Shown here: positions 6,621-41,360 of the stretch, piece by piece
Layout of the letters: each line of letters begins with the position of its first letter
Numbering within the stretch: position 1 is the first letter of the stretch
From: a virus
Strand: one strand, 5' to 3'
Length of the DNA stretch: 41,459 nt
IMG/VR virus record: IMGVR_UViG_3300042294_002028
Location: 1-41,459 of that record
The notes under the pieces: generated by a model
What the model was told of the DNA's origin: nothing
The model's database searches: none
The model's input: the letters and a program-made list of their open reading frames with translations, nothing else
Position numbers and translations under genes: made by a program

Positions 6621-7708
6621 TATTTTTGTGCGGATATTGTGCGAGAATCTTCCGGCGACGCGGGTTCCTTCTCGCGGGCTGTCACTAGCACCATGAACCG
6701 CTCATGGTTGACGTAGTGGTTCATCGCTACCTTGATGTCGTGCCCCAGCCACTTGCACACGGCGGGCGCGGGGTACTCGCCCATCCAGTCGGTTTCCAGG
6801 CTCGACCGGAGGGCGTGCAGGGGCGGCGTCCAGTAGCATCCCGCCCGCTCGATGAGGCGGATGGTGTCCCGCACGTACCCATCTACCCGCACGTCCCAAC
6901 AGAACCGGACCTGTCCCTCGGGCATGGCCTTCTGTGCGGCCCGTAGAGCCTCGTAGAGCCTCGGGGCCATTGGGACGACCCGAGCAGCCTGCTTGGTCGT
7001 CTCGACGCCCCCACGGGGCCATACGGCGATCGTGCGGGCCTTCCAGTCAACATGCCCCGCTTCCAGCGTGAGGGCTTCCATTGCCCGGAGTCCCGCGAAC
7101 CGGGCAAGGGCCAGGAACGCACGCCAAGAGTCGTTACGGGCGGCGGCTATCACTTTCTCGACCGTCTCCACGGGTACATACGCCTTTGCCCGCGATACGT
7201 TGGGCTTGTCGTTCTTGACCCGCGCCATTGGGTTCTTGGCGAGTCGGTTCTGTCGCTCGGCTTCGGCAAACCACATCTTCGTAAACGTGACGATGCCCCA
7301 CACGGTTGCCGGTGCCAGGATCGGCGTGTCCGGCTTGTTGCCCTTGCGTTGACGCCGGAGCCACGCGACATAATCCGCGCACTGTTTGGGCGTGATCTGG
7401 TCAATGAGGGCGTCGGCACCGAAAAACCGCTTGATCCACCCGAGCGCGGTGCGGTAACGGACCTCGGTGGAGGGTGCTAGTTGCTCGTTCTGCGCGAGAA
7501 AGTCCTCGGCCCACGAGTCCACCGTCTCGTTGCTCTTTGCGGCAAAATGCTCAGCCGTGAGCGATTGGCACAGGGCGAGGGCTTCGCGCCGTGTCACTTC
7601 GGAGCGGTTGCCGAGGTACTTGATTCGCTCGACGCCGGTGGAGTCACGCCACGCGGCGCGCCAGTAATCGCCATTGATCCGTAGACGTACAGGGTTGCGG
7701 GTTGTCAC
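6620..7708 (-). CDS. int: Tyrosine site-specific integrase
   Basis: 362 residues from a GTG start with AAGGA upstream. N-terminal arm-binding and SAM-like core-binding domains (about 1-170) precede the catalytic domain. Catalytic residues are visible: Arg208 in GLRAMEAL, Lys239 region, His298 and Arg301 in LHALRSSLE, His323 in LGH and the nucleophile Tyr332 in NHYVN. It recombines attP with the host tRNA-Thr gene. Its stop codon touches the attP core, and three AGTGACANNNCGC repeats lie in the gene, one across the start codon. No excisionase was recognised. Confidence 0.95.
   Translation of the reverse strand: MTTRNPVRLRINGDYWRAAWRDSTGVERIKYLGNRSEVTRREALALCQSLTAEHFAAKSNETVDSWAEDFLAQNEQLAPSTEVRYRTALGWIKRFFGADALIDQITPKQCADYVAWLRRQRKGNKPDTPILAPATVWGIVTFTKMWFAEAERQNRLAKNPMARVKNDKPNVSRAKAYVPVETVEKVIAAARNDSWRAFLALARFAGLRAMEALTLEAGHVDWKARTIAVWPRGGVETTKQAARVVPMAPRLYEALRAAQKAMPEGQVRFCWDVRVDGYVRDTIRLIERAGCYWTPPLHALRSSLETDWMGEYPAPAVCKWLGHDIKVAMNHYVNHERFMVLVTAREKEPASPEDSRTISAQK
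6625..6644. promoter_or_regulatory. Integrase arm-type sites, right arm
   Basis: TTGTGCGG at 6626-6633 and TTGTGCGA at 6637-6644, matching the pair at 6451-6471. These lie inside the last codons of the integrase gene, right beside the core. Confidence 0.6.
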
Positions 7709-9579: not shown

Positions 9580-9804
9580 TTAGGCCGAAACCGGCTCGGT
9601 GTCGGGAGTCTCTACCGGGTGAAATATGGCAATCTGCTTGCCTCGGGTGTCTGTTACACGCGAGAATCGACCAAGCGGAGCGAGCGAGTCGCGAGTGGTT
9701 ACGGCGTGCATCCATGCGCTTCCTTTGTGTTTGAAACGCGCGATCTCTTCCCATCCCGACTCGCGGCTGCCGTCAACGGAAATCGAAACGCAATACTTGA
9801 GCAT
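9580..9804 (-). CDS. Hypothetical small protein, first gene of the integrase unit after the strong promoter
   Basis: 74 residues, MLKYCVSISVDGSRESGW, with AAGGAG before the ATG. It has a beta-alpha-beta look: VSISVDG, WEEIARFKHKGSAWMHAV, then GRFSRVTDTRGKQIAIF. It is the first gene after the TTGACA/GATACT promoter at 9860-9888. Unknown function. Confidence 0.72.
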   Translation of the reverse strand: MLKYCVSISVDGSRESGWEEIARFKHKGSAWMHAVTTRDSLAPLGRFSRVTDTRGKQIAIFHPVETPDTEPVSA

Positions 9805-9819
9805 TTTCTTACTCCTTGA

Positions 9820-9853
9820 CCCGTTACTAGCGGGGTTGGGATTCTGTCCCAAC
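9820..9853 (-). promoter_or_regulatory. Two tandem hairpins in the 5' leader
   Basis: GTTGGGA-CAGAA-TCCCAAC (9835-9853) is a perfect 7-bp stem starting at about the expected transcript start. It is followed by CCCG-CTAGTAA-CGGG (9820-9834), the third CTAG-loop hairpin, then AAGGAG and the ATG at 9804. Confidence 0.65.
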
Positions 9854-9859
9854 ACACAG

Positions 9860-9888
9860 AGTATCGGCTACATCGCGTCGATTGTCAA
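9860..9888 (-). promoter_or_regulatory. Strong sigma70-type promoter
   Basis: Minus strand TTGACA (plus 9883-9888) and GATACT (plus 9860-9865) with exactly 17 bases between. The A/T-rich stretch upstream carries two 11-bp direct repeats at helical spacing. It should drive the leftward gene set 9804-6620 with host polymerase. Confidence 0.8.
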
Positions 9889-9889
9889 C

Positions 9890-9911
9890 GCTTTCTCTAC
9901 GCTTTTTCTAC
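9890..9911 (-). repeat. Two 11-bp direct repeats next to the -35 box
   Basis: GTAGAGAAAGC (9890-9900) and GTAGAAAAAGC (9901-9911) on the minus strand, one mismatch, abutting. The period of 11 equals about one DNA turn and they end one base from TTGACA, so they may bind an activator or repressor on one face. Confidence 0.55.
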
Positions 9912-10553
9912 ACTTTCACGATATTTCAATGCCGCACCGACACTTACGCGCTGTCGTGTTTGGGTACGGAGTCGCGTTCTCGGGCGCTGTCAACGCCCTG
10001 GCACCGAACAACTAGACGCACGCGCCGACGCACGCTAGAGGCTCGTGGACGATCGCACGCGCGGCCAGGCTCGTTGACGCACGCCACTACGCACGCGCTT
10101 TTGAGAGGCTTTGGCGCGGCTTTGGAGACAGGCTAGCGGGGTGAGAAAAACACTGGTGAGGAGTCTCGGACGTGACACCCGCAGCACCGACGCGAGCGAC
10201 CACGCCCGCACGCGACCGATACCGGCCTGCGGCGTGAGGAGAAAAACACTGAGGAGGTGTCGATTCGCTCACACACTCGCTCACCTTCACGCCGGTTTCA
10301 TCACGCTTTCGCATCGCTCTACCCTCGCTCGTTCACCCAGGCTCACGCACGCCGTCACGTTTCCGCACGCCACGCCGCACGATCGCACGCGAACGCCCAC
10401 GATTCGCCGTGTGTGTCAATGCTTACCGGAAGCGTTGCACGCTCGACTAGACCGACCAGTCTACCCAGTCGAACGCCCAGGCCATTGGGGGGCTGACTCG
10501 CGCGTGATGCTCAACCATCCCCTCACGTTTTTCGTTGTCGATATTCGGGGGGT
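9912..10553. other. Gene-free region between TerL side and integrase unit
   Basis: About 640 bases without a credible gene on either strand: open frames here lack ribosome sites and are Arg/His/Ser-rich. The stretch 10010-10420 is crowded with CGCACG/GCACGC. GAGAAAAACACTG occurs twice, at 10143-10155 and 10239-10251, each next to GAGGAG. Small stems such as TAGAC/GTCTA lie near 10450. It sits after the packaging genes, so a packaging or terminal-repeat site is a reasonable suspicion. Confidence 0.55.
10143..10251 (+). repeat. 13-bp direct repeat pair in the non-coding region
   Basis: GAGAAAAACACTG is exact at 10143-10155 and 10239-10251, 96 bases apart, both preceded by GTGAG and followed within a few bases by GAGGAG. 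These purine tracts stand out from the GC-rich surroundings. Confidence 0.5.
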
Positions 10554-13026: not shown

Positions 13027-13042
13027 TAGCGGATGATTTCGT
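13027..13042. repeat. 16-bp direct repeat flanking the methyltransferase gene (left)
   Basis: TAGCGGATGATTTCGT (plus strand) matches 13692-13707 exactly. The right copy is the end of the metallophosphoesterase gene; the left copy starts at the methyltransferase stop. The pair brackets the methyltransferase gene. Confidence 0.85.
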
Positions 13043-13677
13043 TATGCGGACACGAGGTTTTCGCTGTGACGGCGTTCGGCGTCGGCGATGCGGGCCTTCG
13101 CAATCTCGACGTATCCGGCGTCCATCTCGACGCCGATGAACGCCCGTCCTGTTTCGACGCACGCAACGCCCGTTGTTCCTGATCCGGCGAATGGGTCGAG
13201 GACCGTCGCGCCGTCGTCCGTCAATAGTTCAACTTGCTTTAGTGCCCATTCGATGGGCTTGGGGCACGGATGATTTCCAACATCCTCGGACGGCTTGATG
13301 CACGCGCGAACAACGTCACACCCGGCGCGGCGAGGTTTCCCGTACAGTGCTATTGGCTCCCAGTTGTTGAAGCCGACAACGCATCTTCCCATCGCCGCTG
13401 GCTTCCACCACGCCATCCACCAATCAGGCGGCGCGATGCGTGCCCACACAGACAAGTTGACCTGCCCGACCGTTATTGCCATCGGGCCACGGCACACGCG
13501 GCGAATCTCTGTAAACCATTGGAGACACCAGTGTTCGTAGCCATCTCGCTTGTCGTTGTGGGTTGCATACTTGAACCCGACTCCGTAGGGCGGGTCGGTC
13601 ACAACCGCGTCAACGCTTGCGTTCGGCATCGCGCGTAGGGCGTCCAGACAATCCCCGTGGATGACTTGCCAACTCAT
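13042..13677 (-). CDS. Orphan DNA methyltransferase, N6-adenine/N4-cytosine, beta class
   Basis: 211 residues. Catalytic motif IV is DPPYG at 28-32 and the SAM-binding motif I is DPFAGSGTTG at 161-170, the beta-class order. DPPY fits N6-adenine more often than N4-cytosine methylation, but does not decide it. No restriction enzyme is near. The gene is bracketed by a 16-bp direct repeat whose right copy is the tail of the neighbouring gene, which suggests it was added as a cassette. It probably protects phage DNA from host restriction. Confidence 0.92.
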   Translation of the reverse strand: MSWQVIHGDCLDALRAMPNASVDAVVTDPPYGVGFKYATHNDKRDGYEHWCLQWFTEIRRVCRGPMAITVGQVNLSVWARIAPPDWWMAWWKPAAMGRCVVGFNNWEPIALYGKPRRAGCDVVRACIKPSEDVGNHPCPKPIEWALKQVELLTDDGATVLDPFAGSGTTGVACVETGRAFIGVEMDAGYVEIAKARIADAERRHSENLVSA

Positions 13678-13690
13678 GCTGTTTGTGTCC

Positions 13691-14461
13691 TTAGCGGATG
13701 ATTTCGTACTGAACGCGAGGCAGTTCGTTCCCCCACTGGCGGATGAGACTCAGGGCGGTTCCCCAAGTCGTCGTGTTCTCTTTCGTGGCGTACCGGGGTT
13801 TAGCAGGCCCGAGGTGGCCTGGATTGAACATCCATTGCGTGCCACGGGTCGCGGCGGTGATTTCGACGGGCTGGGGAACAACGACGGTGTGCGTGTGGCC
13901 GCGCACGGTCAGGAGGTTGCGGGGGCCACCTAGCAGCGACCACATCCGCAAGCCTTCCAGTCGATCGGACCCACGCCCGCATCCGGCTCCGTGGAAGAAC
14001 GCGGTGTTGCCGATGCGGAGGATGCCGCGCCGGTCAAAGACGTAGGGGCGACGCCGCCAGCGGGCGAACGAGGCTTTCCATTCGGTGTTCTCGGGGCGGA
14101 TGATGAGGTCGCGTGCGATCGACTTGGGGTTCGTCGGGTCGATGCGATACTCGTGGTTGCCGTCCATCCAGTGCCAGCGGACGCGACCGGCCCGCTTGCC
14201 GAGGGCTTTCCACAACTGGTCCGACTGACGGGCCATGCAGCGGTATTCGCTGTAGGCGTCGGCGGCTTCGCTGCGTGGGTGTTCGGACGCCCACGAGTAG
14301 TCGCCCCAATCGCCGATGTTCACCACGTCGGTAATGTCGTTGCGGTTGCGTCCGGCAAGGTCGAGGAACTTGGACCAGTGCGGTTCGCTAGTAAAATGCG
14401 CGTGTACGTCCGGCAGGGGCAGGATGCAGATTGCAGCCCTGCCTCGGGGTGTGAGAATCAC
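13691..14461 (-). CDS. Calcineurin-like metallophosphoesterase
   Basis: 256 residues from a GTG start with TAGGAGG upstream. The metal-binding signature is complete: PDVHAHF near 18-24, NIGDWGDY near 48-55, DGNHE near 99-103, FHGAG and RGHTHT. Such enzymes cleave phosphodiesters, phosphomonoesters or DNA ends; phage members are often of unknown substrate. It lies in the late operon between the glycoside hydrolase-like gene and the methyltransferase, suggesting nucleic-acid or host-defence counteraction rather than structure. Its last codons form the right copy of a 16-bp repeat. Confidence 0.88.
   Translation of the reverse strand: MILTPRGRAAICILPLPDVHAHFTSEPHWSKFLDLAGRNRNDITDVVNIGDWGDYSWASEHPRSEAADAYSEYRCMARQSDQLWKALGKRAGRVRWHWMDGNHEYRIDPTNPKSIARDLIIRPENTEWKASFARWRRRPYVFDRRGILRIGNTAFFHGAGCGRGSDRLEGLRMWSLLGGPRNLLTVRGHTHTVVVPQPVEITAATRGTQWMFNPGHLGPAKPRYATKENTTTWGTALSLIRQWGNELPRVQYEIIR
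13692..13707. repeat. 16-bp direct repeat flanking the methyltransferase gene (right)
   Basis: Exact match of 13027-13042, 665 bp away. It encodes the C-terminal residues EIIR and stop of the metallophosphoesterase. Confidence 0.85.
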
Positions 14462-14469
14462 GCGACCTC

Positions 14470-15330
14470 CTAATCGGCCCTGCGTGGGGCAAACGCGGCG
14501 GTGGCGTCCCCATGCTTCATGGTGTCAACCACGGGACCGATGGCGGCTGTCGCCATGTCCGCGTAGGGGCGAATCTGTTTCATGGTGCAGTTGGCGGATG
14601 AGTACCAAAGAACGGCACCATCGCACCCCAAGTCCCGCAGCGTCTTGATCTGCGTCTGCCAGAACTCCGGCGAGATAAGGCCGCGTCCGGCTGACGGGTG
14701 AATCTCGGGCGAGATGAACGGGATGATCGGTAGCCCGATGCCGTACGCACGCGCGAGCCTGCGGCACTCGTCAATCTGCCAGCGTGTGAACCGCTGCCAG
14801 TGGCCGATGTTGGTGCTGTTGACGTACAGCGACGGGTGCAGCGTGTCGAAGCACTCGATCAGTTCCAACGCGAGAAAATCGTTGGCGATCTGCGACCGGC
14901 GAAGTTCGTTGGTGTCGTTGGTAATGACGGAGTTGAAGACGTTGTAGCCTGTCGGCAGGATGCCGTACAGCCCCACGGGTGCCGTCTCGCTGCCGGTGCG
15001 AACGTCGGCGATGACCTGGCGGATGAACGCACAGTCGTTGGAAATGTCCCGCCCGACGTGAATGCGAACGTCCGAACGCAACGGGCGGTGGGCCTCGCCA
15101 ATGCGATCGGCACGGCTTTCGATGTTGACGACGACCAACGCGCCCGGTGAGAGCGTGGGCCACTTGCGGGCCTCTGCCGCGTCGTAGCGGGACACGTCAC
15201 GCGCCCCGCCGGTGTTGGGCTTGACGGCGTAGAACCGCTGCCCGTCTACCAGAACGTCCACCATGCCGGGCAGGGGCGCACGGGGCAGGAAGGGCCGATC
15301 GTGCGGGTAGAGGCAGTCGTACAACTTCAC
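14470..15330 (-). CDS. Putative TIM-barrel glycoside hydrolase-like protein (possible endolysin)
   Basis: 286 residues from GTG (GTGA overlap with TerS). Alternating strand motifs fit a (beta/alpha)8 barrel: LVVVNIES, VGLYGILP, LHPSLYVN, LPIIPFISPEIHP and DGAVLWYSS. The ES and EIHP acids and the WYSS strand near the end recall glycoside hydrolase clans. No signal peptide is seen. It stands beside TerS, where T7-like phages often keep lysis genes, so cell-wall hydrolysis is a plausible but unproven role. Otherwise a virion polysaccharide hydrolase. Confidence 0.55.
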   Translation of the reverse strand: MKLYDCLYPHDRPFLPRAPLPGMVDVLVDGQRFYAVKPNTGGARDVSRYDAAEARKWPTLSPGALVVVNIESRADRIGEAHRPLRSDVRIHVGRDISNDCAFIRQVIADVRTGSETAPVGLYGILPTGYNVFNSVITNDTNELRRSQIANDFLALELIECFDTLHPSLYVNSTNIGHWQRFTRWQIDECRRLARAYGIGLPIIPFISPEIHPSAGRGLISPEFWQTQIKTLRDLGCDGAVLWYSSANCTMKQIRPYADMATAAIGPVVDTMKHGDATAAFAPRRAD

Positions 15331-25620: not shown

Positions 25621-26808
25621 TTATCCACGGAAAGAGGCGATGCGACCATCGGGCATCATCATCTGCGTGCGACGGACCTTAGCGGTGGTGGTGCCGCTGC
25701 TCACGTCGATCTGGTCAATGATGGGGATGATCGCCGCGCACTTGGTGTTGGTGTCCGTCCAGGTCGTTCCGTCCGGCGACGCGGTGTACATGAACACGTC
25801 GGTGGAGCCGGTGCCGAAGAATGCGTTTCGTTGACCGCTCAGGGTCCACTCAAGGCAGTAGAACTGGAGCGCGGAGTTCGCCGTCGCGTCGGGCTTGAGG
25901 AAGACGCGAACAACGTCGCCCGCCGCAATCTCGGTCGCCGGAACGTCCACGTTGACAAGAATCTGGCCGGGGTTGGACGCTGGAAGGGTGTAAGTGTTGT
26001 ATGAGGTCGTGCTAGTCGTCTTGAGCGTGGTCCCGTCGCTCTCGTAGACGTTCACGACAATCTCGTGCGTTGCGTTCGCGGCGGGGCGGTAGAGGACGTT
26101 GACCGACTTGAGGCGGCACCCAAACTGTGCGTTCCATCGGATGCCGCGCCGGTTCGGGCTGCTTGCCGAGTTCCAGTTGGTTTCGTTCGTCAGGAGCGGC
26201 ACGTTGGAGGTGTTGCTAATGAGGGCACCCGTGCTGTCCGAGGCCCAGAGCGTCGGCATGCTGCCGGTGTGCGACCACGAACCGCTGACAAGGCTCGAAT
26301 AGTGCGGGTGGACGAAGTTCGTCAGCCACGTCTGGTAGCCAGCCCGAATCGTGATCGTGTTGGTGTTGGTCAGGCCCGAGCCGGTTGTTCCGGTGCGGAT
26401 CGTGATTGCGATGAACTGCGGGCTTGCGGTGTTGTTGGTGTAGGTGTCAACGAAGTCGTGCGAGACAACCGCGCCGCTGGTAACGGCTGACCCAGGATTG
26501 TCTTCGACGATCATCGGCGTGGAGCCGCTGCCGTTGCTGGTCAGGGGCGTGCCGTTGGGCCGACCGCCGTAGCCAGAGCCGCTGTTGACGACGCCTTCGA
26601 TCGAGACGTTGTACGTCGGGGTGCCAGCGGGCGCGCCGCCGCCGACGATGTAGACGGAGCCGATCGTCTCGCCGGGCTGCAACATGCAGATCGCGGCTAC
26701 GACGTTGTTGGTCGCCGTCGCGTTGTTCATCGTGATCGTCGCGTGGGCGACGTAGGGGAACTGCGACAGCCGCATGAGCGGGGCTGCGGGGATCGTGGTG
26801 AGTGCCAT
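25621..26808 (-). CDS. Putative tail fibre/adhesion protein
   Basis: 395 residues from the ATG at 26808 (MALTTIPAAPLMRLS), in a TAATG overlap with the small membrane gene upstream. The body is Thr/Ser/Asn/Gly-rich and beta-structured (VYIVGGGAPAGTPTYNVSIEG, FIAITIRTGTTGSG), as in jelly-roll fibre domains. It ends PDGRIASFRG, resembling the GDGRIAAVRA end of the protein at 26936-27703, so the two share a C-terminal tag. No known receptor-binding family recognised. Confidence 0.7.
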   Translation of the reverse strand: MALTTIPAAPLMRLSQFPYVAHATITMNNATATNNVVAAICMLQPGETIGSVYIVGGGAPAGTPTYNVSIEGVVNSGSGYGGRPNGTPLTSNGSGSTPMIVEDNPGSAVTSGAVVSHDFVDTYTNNTASPQFIAITIRTGTTGSGLTNTNTITIRAGYQTWLTNFVHPHYSSLVSGSWSHTGSMPTLWASDSTGALISNTSNVPLLTNETNWNSASSPNRRGIRWNAQFGCRLKSVNVLYRPAANATHEIVVNVYESDGTTLKTTSTTSYNTYTLPASNPGQILVNVDVPATEIAAGDVVRVFLKPDATANSALQFYCLEWTLSGQRNAFFGTGSTDVFMYTASPDGTTWTDTNTKCAAIIPIIDQIDVSSGTTTAKVRRTQMMMPDGRIASFRG

Positions 26809-26936
26809 TAGCGGTCCTTTTGTGTTTGCTGAGCCTGTGCGTAGTTGCCGCTGGTGACAACCTTGATACCCACACCTACCAGTGCGGTGATCGCGGCGGC
26901 AATCGCCGCCGTAGGGATAAAGGTGTCTACCGGCAT
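26808..26936 (-). CDS. Tiny membrane protein, duplicate of the end of the holin-like protein
   Basis: 42 residues, MPVDTFIPTAAIAAAITAL then VGVGIKVVTSGN. It overlaps both neighbours (ATGA and TAATG) and has GAGGA before the start. The hydrophobic segment AAAITALVGxGIKVVTSGN is also the C-terminal end of the protein at 27931-28263, and a 20-base stretch is identical at 26848-26867 and 27968-27987. A recent partial gene duplication that left a stand-alone single-helix protein, perhaps a holin or holin modulator. Confidence 0.75.
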   Translation of the reverse strand: MPVDTFIPTAAIAAAITALVGVGIKVVTSGNYAQAQQTQKDR

Positions 26937-27703
26937 CAGCGAATCCTCGCCCGCACAGCGGCAATGCGACCGTCACCAAGTCGGACGATCTGGCGGCGAG
27001 GCTTGTTAGTCGCGGCGGGGGCGTTCCACGTCACGTCCATCCTGAACCCGTTGAACCCGATGTACGGCGTCGTCTCAAGCGCGTCGCTCGTTCTCGCAAG
27101 CCAGTTGATTCCGTAGGTGGCGTCCCGAATCTGCGCAACGGACGGGAGCGTGCCAGCGACAAGCACGTTTGGATAGAAAGTCGCGTATTCGGGAATCGCA
27201 CCGCGGTCAACGATTCCGGTGTTTAGGAACATGGACCCAACGGCACCAGTGCTGATCCGCTGCTGGGCCTCAATCAAGTAAATAGCCGCACCGGAGCCGC
27301 CCACGCTGTCGATACCGAACGACGAGTCCGCAAAGCGGAACGACATCATGAGGGAGGTAATGGCCGTCGCGTTGGCGGGGATGACGGCAGAGAGGTCCGC
27401 ATCGTCGCCGATTCGTTTCCACGTCGAAAGCCTCGCCATCTTCGACGTGACAAAGACCGTTGCCAAAGCAATTGCCGTGTAGCAGAACTCATTGGCAAGG
27501 CGAACGTCTGTTGCGGCTGGCGGGGTCGCCGGAGTCAGTGCGTTCACGCCTGTAAGACTGCCCTCGTTAGTCGTAGAGTTGGAGTCTTGGCTTGCCTTTG
27601 CCAGATTGTTCCAGTCCGTCGCGTCTGCCGGGTTTGGGTTGAATGTTCCCTCAGCGGATGCTGGCTGAGTCGAGACGGACGGGTAGAACGTGGCGGTAGG
27701 CAT
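26936..27703 (-). CDS. Putative tail fibre protein
   Basis: 255 residues, MPTATFYPSVSTQPASAEG. FNPNPADATDWNNL and TYGINWLARTSDALET motifs with many Ala/Thr/Asn residues suggest an extracellular beta-rich virion protein. It ends RQIVRLGDGRIAAVRARIR, like the end of the fibre at 25621. It lies in a block of fibre and membrane genes placed between the capsid and gp11-like genes. Assignment by composition and context. Confidence 0.6.
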   Translation of the reverse strand: MPTATFYPSVSTQPASAEGTFNPNPADATDWNNLAKASQDSNSTTNEGSLTGVNALTPATPPAATDVRLANEFCYTAIALATVFVTSKMARLSTWKRIGDDADLSAVIPANATAITSLMMSFRFADSSFGIDSVGGSGAAIYLIEAQQRISTGAVGSMFLNTGIVDRGAIPEYATFYPNVLVAGTLPSVAQIRDATYGINWLARTSDALETTPYIGFNGFRMDVTWNAPAATNKPRRQIVRLGDGRIAAVRARIR

Positions 27704-27706
27704 GGA

Positions 27707-27931
27707 CTACAGCCCCACGTCCAGAATCTTCGTGTCGCCGACAACCCACGCGGAAAGGTCGGTTGCGGGGTCAAGGCGAACAATGACGGCCATGCTGCGG
27801 ATGCCGACGTTCAGGGCGACGGCCTCGGTGTCCTCGGGGCCTCGCACGTCCACCATGCGAACAAGCACAGACTCGTCCGCGCCCGAGCCGAACGGCTGCT
27901 TGTGAGTGACGACGAGTTTGCGGTTTGGCAT
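27707..27931 (-). CDS. Small hypothetical protein in the fibre block
   Basis: 74 residues, MPNRKLVVTHKQPFGSG, a beta-rich sequence (VLVRMVDVRG, MAVIVRLDPATDLSAWVVGD). The start overlaps the upstream stop as TAATG. It may be a small virion or fibre-chaperone protein; unknown. Confidence 0.65.
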   Translation of the reverse strand: MPNRKLVVTHKQPFGSGADESVLVRMVDVRGPEDTEAVALNVGIRSMAVIVRLDPATDLSAWVVGDTKILDVGL

Positions 27932-28263
27932 TACTTGGTTTCTTGCTGACTCGCGTGGTCGGGGTTTCCGCTGGTGACAACCTTGATGCCGAGTCCCACC
28001 AGTGCGGTGATTGCGGCTGCAACCGCCGCACCGATTGCGGTGTTTACGCGGGTGTTCCGCACCTTGTCGGCCTCGGCTTTCTCGCGGGCCTGACGCTCCA
28101 TCTCGGCCATACGGAACAACAACCCGCTTGACGGGTCGCCGTTGCCGGTGATGAACTTTTCGATGCGGTACTGGCTTTCAATGAGCCGCCGCACGTCTTG
28201 GGCAATGAGGGCCAGTTCGTAGCCTGCCGTGTGTTCGGTCGGGTCGTGTTGCGGTGCACTCAC
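27931..28263 (-). CDS. Holin-like single-helix membrane protein (XhlA-like layout)
   Basis: 110 residues from GTG at 28263 (GTGA overlap; CGGAG upstream). A helical, coiled-coil-like N-terminal part (YELALIAQDVRRLIESQYR; MAEMERQAREKAEADKVRN) precedes one C-terminal transmembrane helix (AIGAAVAAAITALVGLGIKVV) and a short polar end. This layout resembles XhlA-type lysis membrane proteins. It adjoins a lipoprotein gene, supporting a lysis module. Its C-terminal helix is duplicated as the gene at 26808. Confidence 0.6.
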   Translation of the reverse strand: MSAPQHDPTEHTAGYELALIAQDVRRLIESQYRIEKFITGNGDPSSGLLFRMAEMERQAREKAEADKVRNTRVNTAIGAAVAAAITALVGLGIKVVTSGNPDHASQQETK

Positions 28264-28865
28264 GCTTTTGCTCCGAGTTTGATTCGCTTGACTTCCGCCT
28301 TCCACGCGGCGGCGTAATACGGGTCCATGCGGATCGCTGTGATTCGTGCGTCTTCTGCCGCCTGCTCTTCCGGCGTCATGCCGACGTACTTTTCAACGTC
28401 GAGTTTCGCGGCAACTCGCACGGGCTGCGGAATGAGCCATTGCAGGAACTTCACGCCAGCAAGGAACGCGGCGACGACGGGCCAGAACTTGATGGTGAGG
28501 ACAATTGCGGCGATGCCGAGGCCAAGCCAAAGCAGGTTTCCCAACGCGGTTGCCCACCACGGGGTTTTGTCCTCGACCTTCGGCAGAGCGGTCTGGACCT
28601 TGCCCGCCTCAATCTGAATGTCGCGGGCGTTCTGCGCAATGCCCTTGACGTGGCTAGCCGCCTGCTCATGCTCGGCCACCAACGGGGCGAGGGCTTCGGT
28701 GTGGGCGATGATTCCAGCCGCGAGCGTCTGCGTGTTGCCTGCGGCGCGGGCGATGTCCTTTGTGCCCGAGGTGCAACCGCTCAGGAACACAAGCGCGATG
28801 AGGAACCCAGCCGCGAGTAGGCCGACGCCGACGCGAAGCAGGGCATGGCGGATGTTCTTGCTCAT
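28260..28865 (-). CDS. Lipoprotein with additional membrane helices (lysis or virion-associated)
   Basis: 201 residues. N-terminal basic residues, a hydrophobic stretch and lipobox LSGC put the lipidated Cys at 31. A helical periplasmic segment (QTLAAGIIAHTEALAPLVAEH; KGIAQNARDIQIEAGKVQ) follows, then hydrophobic residues about 104-145 (LGNLLWLGLGIAAIVLTIKF, VVAAFLAGVKFLQWL) and a charged tail. It could be a spanin-like component together with the holin-like neighbour, but the extra membrane helices are atypical. ATG overlaps nothing; it abuts the spike gene. Confidence 0.65.
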   Translation of the reverse strand: MSKNIRHALLRVGVGLLAAGFLIALVFLSGCTSGTKDIARAAGNTQTLAAGIIAHTEALAPLVAEHEQAASHVKGIAQNARDIQIEAGKVQTALPKVEDKTPWWATALGNLLWLGLGIAAIVLTIKFWPVVAAFLAGVKFLQWLIPQPVRVAAKLDVEKYVGMTPEEQAAEDARITAIRMDPYYAAAWKAEVKRIKLGAKA

Positions 28866-30473
28866 TCAGTACACCCCGTTCACGAGTTCGGCCAGCGTGA
28901 CGCACTTGTACGTCCCGTCCTTCAACTTGGGCACCACGGCGTCGGTAACGCCCTTCATAAACGCGTTCTCTTGCGAGCGGTTGGCGTGGCCGTAGAACAC
29001 GGCAAGCCCGCCGTGGGCGTCCAATGCCGTCAGGAGGCTCGCGGAGATTGCGCTGTAGCCCGTCGCGTGCTGCACTTCGAGGTAGTCAAGGTGGTTGGTC
29101 GTCGTCGCGTTCTCGCCAGCCGTGGAGGTGTGCGAAATCACGTCAATGTCGGTTTCGAGAAGCAAGTCGGCCTGCTCGGGCAACAGATTGCCCTGGTGCG
29201 TCGCGTAGATGCGGGCACCCTGCTCAAAGCCGTTGTCCTGCATCCACCACGTCGCGGGCCGGATGTGGTCGATGAGAAGCGACTGCGCCGTGTTCTCACG
29301 CTGCTTGTAGAACGGGCCGTTCGCGTTGTCGTTGAGGTCGTCGCCGGGATACTTGCTCCACCCGTGATTGCCGATCATGTGGCCGGACTTCTGCATGGCG
29401 ATGAGGTCCGCCTTCGACGCGAAGCCCGAGGTGCCGACCACTCGCGGGTGAACGTGGAAGTTGCCACGGATGCCCCACTTGTCGAACTCTTTGGCGGTCA
29501 GGATGCAGTTCGAGTACCCGTCGTCGTCGCGGAAGGCGACAAGTTTCGTGGTCGTCGTGGGGCGAAGGAACTGGAGGGTGTCAAACGTGACCGTGCAGGA
29601 CGTGCCAGACTTGGAGTTCAGATAGATGCGAATGAAATCAATGTCGCTCGGGTCCACCGTGCCAACGGTCGTCGGATGCACGACAAGCGTGTTCCAGCCC
29701 GGACCCGTCACGGCGGACGAGAGGAACTGCTGGAAGTTGGCGATGGTCACGTTGCCGGTTGCGCCGGTCGTGTCGTAGAAGCCGATGCTGATTGTGCCGA
29801 CGTTGCCCTCTAGGGCCGCGTGCTGCGACGGATCGACGTAGACCCGCATCAGAATGAACGGCCATTCGCCCGTGCCTCCGCTTATGTCGATCGGGCCGGG
29901 ACCGCTATCGACAGACGTGCGATAGTCGTACCGAACCTCAGCGGTGACGCCGCTTGTCGCGGTCAACGAGACTGAGTACGGCTGAGACTCGCCGCTTTGG
30001 ACTTCGCCCGAGCGACAGTTGGTGTAGTCCTTTGCGCCCGTGCCAGTAAAGACCCGGAAGCGGTCAGCCGTCAGCGTTGACCCGTTGTAGAGGTCAAACG
30101 CGCAAACGTGCGTCGTGCGGAATCCGCCCTTGCGCAAGCCCTTCGGCGTCGTGCGGGACTTGTATTGCAGGAGGGGTGAGTACGTCACGCTCAGGTCGTC
30201 GGCAAGCAGCACCGAAGCCCGCTCGCACAGATTGAGCGTGCCCGTCAGGTTGACAACCGACAGGCGGTACTGGTTGAACCGGGGCACCACGAACACGCCG
30301 TCCTGATACACAAAGCCAAGCGGGGTCGCCGTGTCCGAGTCGCTATTGCGACCGTCAACCCGCACCAGCCCGGAACTGGAGAACTTGAACCGCAACGGGA
30401 TTGTCGGCGAAGACGCGGTGTTCGCGCTCCAGCCCGTCGTGCCCGTGGCGGTGATGTTGCGTGCGAGTATCAT
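28866..30473 (-). CDS. Tail spike with NodB-type polysaccharide deacetylase domain
   Basis: 535 residues from ATG at 30473 with AGGGGGAA upstream. The N-terminal 310 residues are Thr/Ser/Gly-rich beta structure. The C-terminal 220 residues resemble carbohydrate esterase family 4: FRDDDGYSN (about 314-322) matches the TFDDG motif with the catalytic and metal Asp, GIRGNFHVHPRV follows, and MIGNHGWSKY (about 366-375) stands for the metal-binding His motif. The second His of the usual HxxxH is not obvious. It probably deacetylates a host surface glycan during adsorption. Confidence 0.8.
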   Translation of the reverse strand: MILARNITATGTTGWSANTASSPTIPLRFKFSSSGLVRVDGRNSDSDTATPLGFVYQDGVFVVPRFNQYRLSVVNLTGTLNLCERASVLLADDLSVTYSPLLQYKSRTTPKGLRKGGFRTTHVCAFDLYNGSTLTADRFRVFTGTGAKDYTNCRSGEVQSGESQPYSVSLTATSGVTAEVRYDYRTSVDSGPGPIDISGGTGEWPFILMRVYVDPSQHAALEGNVGTISIGFYDTTGATGNVTIANFQQFLSSAVTGPGWNTLVVHPTTVGTVDPSDIDFIRIYLNSKSGTSCTVTFDTLQFLRPTTTTKLVAFRDDDGYSNCILTAKEFDKWGIRGNFHVHPRVVGTSGFASKADLIAMQKSGHMIGNHGWSKYPGDDLNDNANGPFYKQRENTAQSLLIDHIRPATWWMQDNGFEQGARIYATHQGNLLPEQADLLLETDIDVISHTSTAGENATTTNHLDYLEVQHATGYSAISASLLTALDAHGGLAVFYGHANRSQENAFMKGVTDAVVPKLKDGTYKCVTLAELVNGVY

Positions 30474-30486
30474 GGTTCCCCCTAAA

Positions 30487-30514
30487 GAAACCGCCCCGCG
30501 TTTCCACGGGGCGG
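30487..30514 (-). promoter_or_regulatory. Hairpin-GGTTTC leader before the spike gene
   Basis: CCGCCCC and GGGGCGG arms (7 perfect pairs) close over GTGGAAACGC; GGTTTCTTTAG and the ribosome site follow. Cleanest member of the family, and it lies between two late genes, six bases after the stop of the upstream gene. Confidence 0.65.
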
Positions 30515-30520
30515 ATCGGA

Positions 30521-31096
30521 TTAGTTGTTGCCGAGCAACGCCCACGTCACGATGATCGTGCCGTTGACGGTGATCGTGGTGTTGGCCGTCGAGTTGCCGT
30601 CAACTGCGAAGTTGAGGAACAGGTCAGCCGCCGTAGCGGTGCCGTCCACAAACGCAACCGCCGTGTTCACGCCACCAACCGCGCCAGTAGAAGCGGCGAG
30701 AGTCAGCGACGTAGAAGGCAGCACGTTGGCCTGCGTCGAATCGAGCGTGGTGCCCGTCGCTTCGGCAGCGGTGCCGAGCGAGTGGACAATCGCGTTGGTC
30801 GCGGGGATGCCCGCACCGACAGTAACCGAAGTCAGGTCGGTGACTGCGCCGTAGAAGCCGATGTGTCCTTCCGGCAGGTCCAGAAGTTGCAAGGAGCCGT
30901 ACGCGCCAGAAGCACCGTTGTCGGTCGAATCAATGACGGTGCCGCTGAGAGTAAAGACGGTCTGCCGCAGCGCGCCTTCGCCGTACTCCTTTTTGGAGAC
31001 GCCCTTAGCCTGCGTTGCGGTGGGAATGGTGCCGATGTCGTTCTGGCTCGGGGGCCGAGACGACGAAACGGTGGGAGTTGAGGTGTACGTTGCCAT
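30521..31096 (-). CDS. Putative capsid decoration or fibre protein
   Basis: 191 residues, MATYTSTPTVSSSRPPSQ, with AAGGAG nine bases before the ATG. After a flexible N-terminus the sequence is Thr/Ala/Gly/Val-rich beta structure (VFTLSGTVIDSTDNG, TSVTVGAGIPATNAIV) and ends with alternating hydrophobics (TTITVNGTIIVTWALLG). It directly follows the major capsid gene, where decoration proteins are often found. No enzymatic motif. Confidence 0.6.
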   Translation of the reverse strand: MATYTSTPTVSSSRPPSQNDIGTIPTATQAKGVSKKEYGEGALRQTVFTLSGTVIDSTDNGASGAYGSLQLLDLPEGHIGFYGAVTDLTSVTVGAGIPATNAIVHSLGTAAEATGTTLDSTQANVLPSTSLTLAASTGAVGGVNTAVAFVDGTATAADLFLNFAVDGNSTANTTITVNGTIIVTWALLGNN

Positions 31097-31123: not shown

Positions 31124-32179
31124 TTAGGCGTCGGAGTCGTTGACCTCAATGACGCCAGCGCACCACGGATGCAACGAACCCGCACCCATGAGAACCTGCG
31201 ACTTGATAAACATGGTGTTGCGACGCTCATCGGGCACCAACGCCGACTCAACGCCGCCGTGCTGCACGATGCCGACCGGGGCCATGCCGTACTGACCGCC
31301 AGCCGCCACGACCGCGACGGGGCGACCGACAGCAATGTTGCTGTCCGTGACCTCGAACGTGCCCTGGTACTTGCTGGGGCCGGTGGTGACGTTCTGGCTC
31401 GGGATGCGGTTCTTGGCAACCATCACCTCGAAGCCAGCGAGTTTGCCGATGAGACGGCTCTGAAGGTTGTTGCCGCTGGCGTTCTGGGCGTACTGCACGT
31501 CCCAAATGCCAGTGTCCTTCGCAAGCACGCGGCGGATGTAGGGGTCGATCCACATATAGCGACCGCCCTCGGGCACGTTGTCGTTGTCCATCGCCTCGGC
31601 AAGAGCCTGGGCGTCGTCAAGGAAGTTGGACGCGCCCGTAGACGTAACGGGGTAAGCCGCCGCCACCGTCTCGCTCGACTCTGCGGCAACGTCGCGGGTA
31701 ACGCGGTTGCCGCCGTTGTGGACTTCGCGCCCGTTCTTGGTGACGGACGCGGCGCGAGCGGTGAGAACGAGCAAGCGGGCGAGCCGATTGTCGTAGAACC
31801 GCGCGATGCGCTCGCCGGTCTTGCGGGCAAGCGGGCCAAGAATGTCGAAGTTGGCAATCTTCATCTGGTCGAGCGGGACGTCGTGGTGAGCCACAACGAT
31901 GCCGTCGATCGTGATGTTGCCCTCGTCAATCTCGAACTGCTGACCAAGCAGTTCATCGCCGGGGGTGTGTTCCTCGGGGTCGGGGGTGTCGGCCATCAGA
32001 TAGAACTGGTGGCTGTTGCCCTGCGTGATGATCTTGCGCTGAATGGCCGGGCTGTCCGCGAAGATCACTTCGTCACGGAACGCCTCGACCACGCCCAACT
32101 GAAACATTTCCTCTGGCGACAGGGCATACTCGGTGCCTGCCGCGTTGTTGAGGAAGCGAGACGGATTGCTTGAAGACAT
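31124..32179 (-). CDS. Major capsid protein, T7 gp10-like
   Basis: 351 residues. Position after scaffold, size close to T7 gp10A (345) and motifs QGNSHQFYLMADTPDPEEHTP region, DEGNITIDGIVVAHHDVPLD, and GGRYMWIDPYIRRVLAKD support an HK97-fold capsid protein of the T7 type. AGGTG stands before the ATG. It forms the icosahedral shell. Confidence 0.88.
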   Translation of the reverse strand: MSSSNPSRFLNNAAGTEYALSPEEMFQLGVVEAFRDEVIFADSPAIQRKIITQGNSHQFYLMADTPDPEEHTPGDELLGQQFEIDEGNITIDGIVVAHHDVPLDQMKIANFDILGPLARKTGERIARFYDNRLARLLVLTARAASVTKNGREVHNGGNRVTRDVAAESSETVAAAYPVTSTGASNFLDDAQALAEAMDNDNVPEGGRYMWIDPYIRRVLAKDTGIWDVQYAQNASGNNLQSRLIGKLAGFEVMVAKNRIPSQNVTTGPSKYQGTFEVTDSNIAVGRPVAVVAAGGQYGMAPVGIVQHGGVESALVPDERRNTMFIKSQVLMGAGSLHPWCAGVIEVNDSDA

Positions 32180-39056: not shown

Positions 39057-40465
39057 TCCTGCCCTCTGCTTTCGTCGATGTTCTCGAACCGCGTGCGTTC
39101 CGCGTTCCAACGCAGATCGACAACGCCCGTGGGTCCGTTTCGCTGTTTCGCTACGATCAACTCGGCCTTGCCCACCTTGTCGGGGTTTGCGGCCAACCAC
39201 TCGGGATCGCTGATGTGGTAGTAGTCCTCGCGGTGCAGTAGCAGCACCACGTCGGCATCCTGCTCGATGCTGCCGGACTCGCGGAGGTCGGACATGCGGG
39301 GCTTGTTGCCCTCGCGCGACTCGGCCCCGCGATTCAACTGCGAGAGGCAGATCACCGGCACGTCCAACTCGCGGGCCAGGGACTTGATGCCACGGCTGAT
39401 TGCCGAGACTTCGACCTGTCGGCTCTCGCGTGCCTGCGCCGGGCTGGTCAACAACTGCATGTAGTCGATGACGATGGCACAGACCGGCACGCCCTCACGC
39501 TTGCGGGCCAGCACCCGGCGACGGGCCATGTTGCGGAGTTGGGTAATGGTCAACCCCGCCCGGTCGATGATGTCGATGGGCATGTTCGCAACCGTGTCGG
39601 CGGCACCGAGAACGCGGCGGTACTGGTCGCCGCCCATTGTTCCGTTGCGGAGAACCGGCAGGTCAACGCCCGCATGTGCGGACGCGATACGGTCCCACAG
39701 GGCTTCGGCGGACATTTCCAGCGAGAACAGGAGGATCGCCCCCGCCTCGGTCCCGCAAATACCCTCGGCCATGTTCACGGCCAGGGCGGTCTTGCCCATG
39801 CTCGGGCGGGCAGCGACGATGACCAACTCGCCGGGCTGGAACCCGCTGGTCATGGCGTCCAGCCGGAAGAACCCCACCTTGACGCCGCGATTGCCCTTCG
39901 GCGAGTCCAAAGCCGCGAGCCGGGCGGTCGTCAGTTCCTTCATCGTGCGAACCACGGCCTGCGACTTGGCTTCGGTCAGTTCGATTGCCGCGCTCTGGTA
40001 CTCGTCCAGAACCACCGTCACGGCGTCCGAGTCGGTGGGGTCAATGTCGTAGGCTTTGTGGACGGCCTGCCCCGCGTTGACCACAAGACGGCGCAAGGCT
40101 GCCGACTGGCCGACGATCTTGGCGTAGGTCACGGCTCCTGCGGCGGACGGCACGCTCTCGGCCAGTTCGCGTAGGTACTCGCCACCGCCCACGGCCTCGA
40201 ACAGATTGCCGTTCTTGATCGCCTCAATGAGCAACACGAGGTCGATACGCCCCATGCGGTCGATGATGTCGCACGCCACCCGGTAGATCGCCGCGTGCCG
40301 CTCGTCGTAGAAGTCCTCGGGGCTGGCGATGTGGGTTTGCACGTCGGCAAGTACGTTCGGATCGTTGAGAATGGCCCCCAAAAGGCTCATCTCGGCATGG
40401 ACCGCCTTCGGCACCGGGCGATTGAACAAGGCTTCGAGGTTGACGATCGGCGCGTTACGCGGCAT
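39050..40465 (-). CDS. dnaB: Replicative DNA helicase, DnaB family
   Basis: 471 residues. The N-terminal domain starts PKAVHAEMSLLGAILNDP; the RecA-like domain has GFQPGELVIVAARPSMGKT with Walker A at 219-226, LFSLEMS, VIDYMQLL (Walker B), LARELDVPVICLSQLNRG and DLRESGSIEQDADVV. It is a full-length hexameric helicase and not the T7 gp4 primase-helicase: no zinc-binding primase domain is present. It unwinds the fork for the host replisome. It overlaps the initiator gene by 11 bases. Confidence 0.97.
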   Translation of the reverse strand: MPRNAPIVNLEALFNRPVPKAVHAEMSLLGAILNDPNVLADVQTHIASPEDFYDERHAAIYRVACDIIDRMGRIDLVLLIEAIKNGNLFEAVGGGEYLRELAESVPSAAGAVTYAKIVGQSAALRRLVVNAGQAVHKAYDIDPTDSDAVTVVLDEYQSAAIELTEAKSQAVVRTMKELTTARLAALDSPKGNRGVKVGFFRLDAMTSGFQPGELVIVAARPSMGKTALAVNMAEGICGTEAGAILLFSLEMSAEALWDRIASAHAGVDLPVLRNGTMGGDQYRRVLGAADTVANMPIDIIDRAGLTITQLRNMARRRVLARKREGVPVCAIVIDYMQLLTSPAQARESRQVEVSAISRGIKSLARELDVPVICLSQLNRGAESREGNKPRMSDLRESGSIEQDADVVLLLHREDYYHISDPEWLAANPDKVGKAELIVAKQRNGPTGVVDLRWNAERTRFENIDESRGQEW

Positions 40466-41360
40466 GGTGGCCCTCCTTGACCATCGCCACGAACTCTGGC
40501 GGGGGTGTATTGACGAACTGAGACTTGGGCCAGTTGGCGAACTTGGCGTGCTTGGCCTTCAGAGCCTCTACGATTCGCTCTACGGCGTCCGAAGGCAGTT
40601 GACGGACCATCAGGGCATCCGACTCTCGGGCGTCTCTAATCGAATCTAATGGCGTTGTGGACTTGACCCACGGTTCACCCGCGAGCCAACGGTCGATGCG
40701 GGGTGCAAACCGATCCGCCCATCCGGGATTGCTCTTGGCCTTCGCAAGTGCGGCCATGATCGCCGGTGCATGTTGGTCCAGGTTCTTGCGATACCAGTGC
40801 AGCCGGGCGTGTCCGGGGTCGGGCCGCTTGTTCTCGGGGTAGGCGTGAAAGAACACCTCAAACGGCTCGACGGCGTTAGAACCAGAAGACAGAATACATT
40901 CTTCTTCTTCATCTTCTACGAAACGGTTATCCGATTTTGCCGAGGGGGGGATAAGGGGGGGGTTATCCGAACTTCCAACCCCCCGGTTATCCGAACCGCG
41001 TTTCAGGGAGGGATTGCCACCTTTGGACCCGTTCGCCTTGTTCTTTTCCGACAGTTCGGCATCCCGAACCATCCGGCGGCAGACGATCACGCCGTCCACA
41101 ATCGAGTAGACGCCAGCGTTCTCAAGTTCGGCGAGCAGCGTCCGCACCTCGGCGGCGTCGGCACCCACGTTTCGCGCCAGTTCTGCCGTCGTCGGCGGCC
41201 TGTTGCGGACCAACAAATAACCACGCCGCTCGGCTTCGTACATGATGCAGATCATGTCTACCCACAGCCCACGGGCGGCGAGTGAACACGCCCGCAACTC
41301 GGGGTCCTTCTTCCAATCCCCGATGTAGAACTGCAATGCTGGTCGCTTGTCCTTCGCCAT
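40455..41360 (-). CDS. Replication initiator/helicase-loader-like protein with internal origin
   Basis: 301 residues. The N-terminus (FYIGDWKKDPELRACSLAARG, RGLWVDMICIMYE) matches the helix-rich DNA-binding domain seen at the start of many phage replication proteins (DUF1376-type), followed by a winged-helix-like TAELARNVGADAAEVRTLL segment. A flexible Ser/Pro/Asn linker (about 115-150) is encoded by the iteron cluster. The C-terminal half is helical. Lambda O has the same design, with its origin inside the gene and DnaB recruitment next door. The first 79 codons recur at 1-239. Confidence 0.85.
   Translation of the reverse strand: MAKDKRPALQFYIGDWKKDPELRACSLAARGLWVDMICIMYEAERRGYLLVRNRPPTTAELARNVGADAAEVRTLLAELENAGVYSIVDGVIVCRRMVRDAELSEKNKANGSKGGNPSLKRGSDNRGVGSSDNPPLIPPSAKSDNRFVEDEEEECILSSGSNAVEPFEVFFHAYPENKRPDPGHARLHWYRKNLDQHAPAIMAALAKAKSNPGWADRFAPRIDRWLAGEPWVKSTTPLDSIRDARESDALMVRQLPSDAVERIVEALKAKHAKFANWPKSQFVNTPPPEFVAMVKEGHHAA
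40885..41000. promoter_or_regulatory. ori: Putative origin of replication: iterons in the initiator gene
   Basis: GGTTATCCGA occurs exactly at 40925-40934, 40961-40970 and 40985-40994. A fourth TTATCC lies in reverse orientation at about 40949-40954. TTATCC is the first six bases of the DnaA box. G/C tracts separate the repeats. An A/T-rich segment (40889-40922) lies alongside, as an unwinding element would. All within the codons for the linker of the initiator protein. Confidence 0.65.

Follow-up and report, generated by a model that had tools for sequence, protein, structure and literature searches.

We analyzed the gene at positions 28866-30473 (minus strand) of the viral record IMGVR_UViG_3300042294_002028 from IMG/VR, which at its full length of 41,459 bases is referred to here as the window. 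The preferred interpretation, which we hold with a little less than even confidence, is that its 535-amino-acid product is an exchangeable turret-like head protein of a T7-like phage that would hold and trim a host glycan. According to this interpretation, an N-terminal capsid-type jelly roll would fix the protein to the particle, with the head as the most likely site, and the central jelly roll would bind a host surface glycan. A C-terminal NodB domain would modify this glycan; O- or N-deacetylation is the likeliest reaction, using a metal coordinated by an Asp-His pair together with waters, as in the esterase CtCE4. The analysis establishes the open reading frame and its three-domain layout, the structural matches, the order of the genes, the exchange of domains, and the altered residues of the active site; the place of the protein on the particle, its oligomeric state, its anchoring, its glycan binding, and its catalysis are inferred from these.

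The open reading frame is real and starts at the ATG at 30473. When read from a GTG, the open frame spans 30545-28866 on the minus strand; the ATG at 30473 is conserved, has AGGGGG four bases upstream, and corresponds in the relative L007 to an ATG with no in-frame start codon upstream of it. The product has three domains, all encoded on the minus strand: an anchor-like N-terminal jelly roll (residues 1-104; 30162-30473), a linker and central jelly roll of the carbohydrate-binding-module type (residues 105-305; 29559-30161; the jelly roll itself at residues ~118-305), and a NodB/CE4-fold domain (residues 306-535; 28869-29558).

The NodB/CE4-fold domain in the C-terminal part is real, bearing out the original prediction of a polysaccharide deacetylase-type domain in this protein. 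PF01522 was the sole Pfam match of the 535-amino-acid protein (E 7.5e-4; 19.9 bits, under the curated cutoff of 23.1) and was matched by all eight members of alignment A3, which contains the window protein and seven relatives. A Pfam score alone is weak evidence for NodB, because another, spurious-looking match in this record scored 17.0 bits versus 19.4 bits for this gene in a record-wide scan. We therefore decided the assignment by the match to CtCE4 and by structure. The CE4 esterase CtCE4 (2c71) was the best solved chain by sequence, with E 4.9e-5 for a single sequence and 5.3e-6 with a profile, and model residues ~306-535 matched many CE4 structures at Z scores of 14 to 17. Both Pfam and structure thus identify the catalytic domain as NodB and not as an SGNH hydrolase fold. 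NCBIfam gave weak matches to HfsH and PgdA, far below cutoff, and a PADLOC scan gave no match. The spurious-looking PF01522 match, at 40458-40601, was considered as a second NodB copy and rejected, as it covered 48 residues of what by eye and position is a replication-region protein beside a helicase gene.

The body of the protein most closely resembles the turret head of Haloferax tailed virus 1 (HFTV1). Chain TA of 8QPG, the HFTV1 turret head protein, ranked first among solved structures in Foldseek (E 1.4e-17; next match, 2.2e-8). It also ranked first in VIA-align, where low-confidence model stretches were excluded and model residues 103-534 aligned with chain residues 46-413 (Z 26.0; root mean square deviation, 3.9 Å; 340 residues); the runner-up, at Z 16.7, covered the NodB part only. 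We confirmed the 8QPG turret head sequence as gp31 and its base chain as gp30. In the accessible part of the HFTV1 report, gp31 is described as having a galactose-binding-like domain (57-198) and a deacetylase-like domain (199-413), as forming trimers on a hexameric base, and as proposed to bind and modify host glycans (PMC12494034). The 535-amino-acid protein likewise has a galactose-binding-like jelly roll followed by NodB up to the C terminus, and both genes lie in a structural region. The two proteins differ in that gp31 is joined by a short stalk to a base formed by another protein, whereas the 535-amino-acid protein bears its own jelly-roll N-domain; no stalk strand of the HFTV1 type was found, as the 8QPG match begins at model residue 103 and is preceded by the 104-residue jelly roll. 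In further contrast, gp31 keeps both histidines of the CE4 motif MT2 (NHGYNH), contains Zn according to the same part of the report (PMC12494034), and belongs to a virus with an archaeal host.

A Foldseek search of a library of predicted viral structures with the full-length model was led by Bacillus phage G gp673 (E 2.8e-20) and HFTV1 gp31 (E 1.9e-18), followed by an Arthrobacter phage Qui esterase (E 2.1e-17) and a Myoviridae ctcyQ27 deacetylase (E 2.2e-16). The phage G, Qui, and ctcyQ27 proteins come from isolates or metagenomic phages, and the likeness is one of fold alone between predicted models. The matches to phages G and Qui therefore indicate that the predicted fold occurs in isolated bacteriophages. 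The HFTV1 authors, in the portion of their report available, described the turret head protein as without homology to bacteriophage proteins (PMC12494034).

Folded alone with 11 sequences, residues 1-104 formed a confident jelly roll, with a predicted local distance difference test score (pLDDT) of 90.2. Its nearest solved folds were YomS (Z 9.9) and XepA (Z 9.3), proteins of Bacillus subtilis prophages, over 85 residues at 12-13% identity. We take structure 6IA5, which the HFTV1 authors cite to the XepA/YomS paper, to be XepA. As far as the accessible text of the HFTV1 report goes, 6IA5, a B. subtilis PBSX-type protein, was the only probable homologue of the turret base, at Z 8.1 (PMC12494034). 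Excerpts of the XepA/YomS paper propose capsid attachment, with a comparison to the BPP-1 cement protein, and describe both proteins as pentamers, which unlike the window protein lack an enzyme body (PMC6834076). These models suggest that the N-domain and the body each point to one half of the HFTV1 turret, base and head, respectively, and the N-domain is probably an anchor.

Consistent with the T7-type label in the original prediction, the window encodes a single-subunit T7-type RNA polymerase (phrog_414; E 1e-149) and a T7-type head/tail module with head-tail adaptor, capsid, tail tubular, and internal virion proteins, plus an integrase; further T7-like markers were phrog_449, phrog_267, phrog_446, phrog_457, and phrog_342. 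Including the window, 13 contigs carried the gene, 11 of podophage type and 2 (L035 and L036) with a head that we label lambda-type; the number of independent contigs is smaller, because the proteins L009, L010, and L011 (contigs L017, L018, and L019) are identical. In every one of the 13 contigs the gene was capsid-proximal and followed the capsid gene, a gene's place being no proof of where its product sits. The order portal, scaffold, capsid, phrog_11997 gene, and 535-amino-acid-type gene was found in all 11 podophage contigs, and in the window the T7-type major capsid gene (phrog_267; 31124-32179, minus strand) and the gene for a 191-amino-acid phrog_11997 protein (30521-31096, minus strand) take these places. 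A lysis-like gene follows in all nine podophage contigs that reach that far, and a gene for a 395-amino-acid protein (g432) is present in eight. The window equivalents, all on the minus strand, encode a 201-amino-acid membrane- or lipoprotein-like, lysis-like protein (28260-28865; weak spanin2 match at 19.2 bits versus a cutoff of 80), a 124-amino-acid protein that is holin-like by look alone (27931-28305), and the 395-amino-acid protein (25621-26808), whose start was set by comparison with relatives. Exceptions to this arrangement were L016, with a second phrog_11997-like gene before the lysis-like gene, and L017 to L019, with a gap of ~790 bases.

In L035 and L036, the same cassette follows a capsid gene from a different family. 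In these contigs, a gpD-like gene (our label; PHROG head scaffolding, phrog_673) and the other-family capsid gene precede the deacetylase-fold gene, and the same lysis-like genes come after it. The L035 head genes matched phrog_15 (terminase), phrog_21 (portal), phrog_53 (protease), and phrog_1005 (capsid). Because the L035 tail-region proteins that were scanned matched no PHROG family, we call L035 long-tailed from its gene order. At the DNA level, the window and 16.3 kb of L035 shared only the cassette, with 78-82% identity for the lysis-like and 395-amino-acid genes plus 60 bases of the 535-amino-acid gene.

Comparison of relatives indicated that parts of the protein are exchanged as blocks. 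The N-domain of L034 (on the same contig as L027) was 81% identical to that of the window, with 39% identity in the central domain and 38% in NodB (97 residues covered). Over the 109 residues tested, the L034 body shared 98% identity with the L035 body and 96% with the L036 body, and the L035 and L036 N-domain was 40% identical to that of the window. Upstream, the L034 genome was 94.7% identical to the window over 7.1 kb. The N-domain thus occurs with two different bodies. Among closer relatives (L015, L021, and L002), nucleotide identity to the window per 90-base bin was 89-100% in the N-domain and NodB and only 70-84% in a central jelly roll block at ~30150-29560. The synonymous rate (dS) relative to L002, L006, and L021 was 0.46-0.52 in the central domain versus 0.08-0.15 in the flanking domains. 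These patterns indicate that the putative glycan-binding central domain has been replaced by recombination. Similar identity dips were found nearby, in the phrog_11997 gene of L021 and L002 and in the lysis-like gene of L015 and L002, and the region is therefore mosaic as a whole. The nonsynonymous-to-synonymous ratio (dN/dS) of NodB against three close relatives was 0.06-0.11; values against distant relatives were not used because of large dS.

Several findings weigh against a turret-like head protein. The full-length model, built with eight sequences, was only moderate (pLDDT 68.7; predicted template modeling score, 0.60). Comparison of the profile of alignment A7 with gp31 by hhalign gave a probability of 0.1 and no sequence similarity; since sequence profiles give no link, the likeness to gp31 is one of fold and layout. 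The N-domain profile did not match the HFTV1 turret base sequence, and neither it nor the phrog_11997 profile matched the HFTV1 base protein or the gpD-like protein of L035. The HFTV1 base protein was also absent among the best 50 matches listed for the N-domain model, and the N-domain found nothing at E ≤0.001 in the predicted viral library (best, an unnamed protein at 1.3e-3). Searches for solved relatives by sequence gave nothing convincing with the N-domain profile (best E 1.6) or the phrog_11997 profile (best E 0.039). Beyond YomS and XepA, the N-domain matched a pectin-binding module (Z 7.7; rank 3), BPP-1 capsid chain 3j4u_H (Z 7.0), a Klebsiella phage baseplate cup (Z 6.9), a bacterial fiber (Z 6.5), the Carin1 capsid (Z 6.4), an STIV structural protein (Z 5.8), and many carbohydrate-binding modules (Z 5.5-6.5), all within the range under Z 8 that, by the comparison tool's own warning, may reflect a common arrangement. 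Because jelly rolls are this common, occurring in the pectin-binding module, baseplate cup, and fiber alike, the N-domain may bind glycan or the tail and not the capsid.

The genomic context also speaks in part against a head location. An intrinsic-terminator-like hairpin lies between the phrog_11997 gene and the 535-amino-acid gene (30491-30514, minus strand), and a GC-rich hairpin with a T-rich tail precedes the gene in nine of nine podophage loci, with compensating changes in several. The hairpin is of note because of this conservation and not because of the terminator scan itself, which found no excess in the window (3 found versus a shuffle mean of 4.6). Given the conserved hairpin, the capsid and phrog_11997 genes appear to be transcribed together, with the 535-amino-acid gene opening a separate unit. 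In T7, the corresponding terminator is followed by tail and internal virion genes. In L035 and L036, a tRNA-Met (CAT) gene at 7034-7105 separates the deacetylase-fold gene from the capsid gene; no tRNA genes were found in the window. The cassette may be mobile, with a favored insertion site, which would make the capsid-proximal position weaker evidence for the head.

The altered active site likewise bears against the proposed catalysis. Counts are for the 10 rows of A7 and, at MT2, for 11 sequences, as the truncated L034 spans this motif; register was set with haloarchaeal deacetylases from a plasmid search (two matches; better E 6e-4). The original prediction had named the motifs FRDDDG and NHGWSK, and both are present, at residues 314-319 and 369-374. 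The MT1 equivalent (F314-RDDD-G319; 29517-29534, minus strand) has tandem aspartates of the kind that serve as base and metal ligand in CE4 enzymes, with RDDD invariant in 10 of 10 rows and a register of either D316/D317 or D317/D318. The MT2 equivalent (N369-HGWS-K374; 29352-29369, minus strand) keeps the first metal histidine and has lysine in place of the second, K374 aligning with the second metal histidine of the archaeal deacetylase NHSYSH. This motif reads NHGW[SN]K in 8 of 11 sequences and AHQGWSR in 3, so that the second histidine is Lys in the former and Arg in the latter, in which the first histidine also stands one position earlier. The MT3 equivalent (ATHQGN, residues 424-429; 29187-29204, minus strand) reads A[TS]HQGN in 8 of 10 rows and APEQGN in 2 of 10 (L035 and L036), compared with AYPFG in the archaeal deacetylase and with the Pro and Arg of the canonical RPPYG type. 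The usual proline is thus replaced by His or Glu, with a proline one position earlier in the two APEQGN rows. This proline is hydroxylated in several CE4 enzymes. D444 is invariant in A7 and possibly corresponds to the MT4 aspartate, and the MT5 equivalent His496 (28986-28988, minus strand) is invariant in 10 of 10 rows and aligned with the archaeal deacetylase histidine. D413, N414, N429, N460, and H461 are invariant in all 10 rows as well and may form a changed site.

Such a site has a partial precedent in the acetylxylan esterase CtCE4 (2C71), which shares the NodB fold, the replaced second MT2 histidine, and a single-histidine metal site. In the available part of its description, CtCE4 is active with its metal coordinated by a single Asp, a single His, and four waters, Tyr543 replaces the second histidine, and p-nitrophenyl acetate is not a substrate on which it is active (PMC6282417). 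It differs from the 535-amino-acid protein in having TFDDG versus RDDDG at MT1 and Tyr543 versus Lys/Arg at MT2, and in being a secreted cellulosomal enzyme without a phage anchor. A metal-independent NodB relative lost both aspartates and one histidine, and inactive members exist, according to excerpts of PMC10967932; 3CL6, Ba0150, and EcCDA are the relatives named as lacking metal or activity. By its residues, the site of the window protein would fall between these cases, fuller than that of the metal-independent relative and less complete than that of a standard CE4 enzyme. Because CtCE4 works with a single histidine, deacetylation by the NodB domain is possible by analogy. The deacetylase activity of the original prediction is therefore only a possibility: the Asp pair and MT5 histidine are kept, whereas Lys or Arg replaces the second metal histidine throughout and 3 of 11 sequences have the first one displaced. 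The absence of metal ligands, which that prediction named as grounds against itself, applies in part, as the second MT2 histidine is replaced, although one histidine can suffice in CtCE4 (PMC6282417, excerpt).

Our confidence in the different readings is a matter of judgment, and the readings overlap. The main alternative to deacetylation, one that cuts across the question of location and that we consider rather unlikely, is that the NodB fold is rewired or dead as a deacetylase and serves as a glycan-binding or differently acting domain, such as a lectin, a metal-independent amidohydrolase, or a lyase. The Lys/Arg at the second metal histidine in 11 of 11 sequences, the first histidine displaced in 3 of 11, the MT3 proline replaced in all 10 reaching it, the MT4 Asp that cannot be assigned, and the existence of NodB relatives without metal or activity all fit this explanation. 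It is opposed by the invariant Asp pair, MT5 histidine, and five further polar residues listed above, by the strong constraint on NodB between close relatives, and by the activity of CtCE4. A second alternative is that the protein is a non-virion enzyme of the lysis cassette, freed at lysis to loosen surface glycan for progeny escape. The gene does lie upstream of lysis-like genes that travel with it, and XepA and YomS, its nearest N-domain folds, are termed lytic-cassette proteins (PMC6834076, in part). We regard this as very unlikely, given that no signal peptide is apparent by eye, that the body matches a virion turret, and that the XepA/YomS authors themselves propose capsid binding (PMC6834076, in part). 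Swapping of anchor and body is typical of adsorption proteins, and the replacement of the central domain, typical of receptor-binding proteins, speaks against a purely lytic role.

The original prediction had called the protein a tail spike, and a tail or neck spike with the same three domains, anchored on the T7-type tail or collar and deacetylating capsule or O-antigen at adsorption, is in our view unlikely but remains the strongest competitor on location. Tail receptor-binding proteins usually combine a conserved anchor with a body that can be exchanged, no gp17-type tail fiber was recognized among the other window proteins scanned (part of the genes), the gene lies behind the terminator-like hairpin and upstream of the tail tubular genes, and the baseplate cup is among the N-domain matches. 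Known phage deacetylases also sit on tail fibers or spikes; G7C gp63.1, Possum gp66, and Aristophanes gp41 are proposed, in the accessible parts of their descriptions, to remove acetyl groups from surface polysaccharide at adsorption. These are, however, SGNH folds with other catalytic machinery. The label tail spike is nevertheless poorly supported. The protein matches no PHROG family, although a tail fiber or spike could lack such a match; its gene lies between capsid and lysis-like genes, away from the T7 gp17 position, and is capsid-proximal in all 13 contigs; and both body and N-domain best match turret- and XepA-type structures. In addition, one N-domain family (~40% identity) serves phages with different head modules. 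These observations favor a turret-like protein that probably sits on the head and, less probably, on the tail.

If the turret-like reading is correct, glycan-modifying receptor enzymes also occur away from phage tails, and a head-mounted, swappable enzyme would alter how host range is read from genomes, because it would escape a survey limited to tail genes. Bacterial phages would also be linked to the archaeal turret of HFTV1. More broadly, and only tentatively, we propose that bacteriophages of two capsid families (T7-type and lambda-type) carry head turrets of the HFTV1 kind, with a XepA-like base fused to a glycan-binding/NodB body and a rewired single-His Lys/Arg site, that the body, the central domain, and the whole cassette are exchanged, and that enzyme-bearing turrets are common to bacterial and archaeal tailed viruses and not an invention of HFTV1. 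The Lys/Arg replacing the metal histidine is a conserved, testable departure from CE4 chemistry.

Parts of this design are already known, namely NodB, the carbohydrate-binding jelly roll, the XepA-like jelly roll, the assembled device in HFTV1, and similar predicted phage folds. Annotation of polysaccharide deacetylases in phages is not new either, since the accessible part of PMC11924767 lists one among auxiliary genes of Acidobacteriota-linked phage contigs. New are the one-chain fusion with a XepA-like N-domain, its occurrence behind capsid genes of two families, the swapping of N-domain, body, and binding domain as blocks, and the Lys/Arg substitution at the metal site. In an isolated-phage collection of 50,697 records, from which those very near the window may be left out, tblastn with the whole protein gave no match at E ≤0.01, the NodB domain gave one partial match (E 1), the N-domain gave four weak matches (best E 0.4), the L035 body gave none at E ≤1, and HFTV1 gp31 found HFTV1 itself only. 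Further scans that used the N-domain as query brought up no contig beyond those described and no case in which it is joined to a different class of enzyme. Among the open-licence PMC papers listed, we found no report besides HFTV1 of a NodB-fold protein on a phage head. Scans of genome contigs for the host found no relative.

Other observations concern neighboring genes and relatives. In L016, a second, diverged phrog_11997 copy (9639-10208) lies directly behind the deacetylase-fold gene. The 85-kb L016 contig (G001) has two integrases, and its 46-60 kb region looks by eye like a second phage module, with a terminase-like gene and a 1,635-amino-acid gene; the contig would be either two tandem phages or an assembly chimera. 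In Pseudomonas phage Rollin, a phrog_11997 gene precedes a gene annotated as tail fiber that is not visibly related to the 535-amino-acid protein. The 395-amino-acid protein of the window appears in L035 (9664-11424) as 586 amino acids with an extra C-terminal part, and the start of another contig, L051, encodes a 94% relative of the first 368 residues of that L035 protein. A 255-amino-acid gene (g255; 26936-27703, minus strand) is present in the window only, of the nine contigs reaching there, and its C terminus, RRQIVRLGDGRIAAVR, resembles by eye that of the neighboring 395-amino-acid protein, VRRTQMMMPDGRIASFR. Between the terminase and internal virion genes, the window encodes DNA methyltransferase- and metallophosphoesterase-like genes (13042-13677 and 13691-14461, minus strand). 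Finally, a 286-amino-acid protein (14470-15330, minus strand) came close to the threshold for glycoside hydrolase family 56 (hyaluronidase; 22.5 bits versus a cutoff of 23.2) and weakly matched a hyaluronidase of solved structure (E 0.064).

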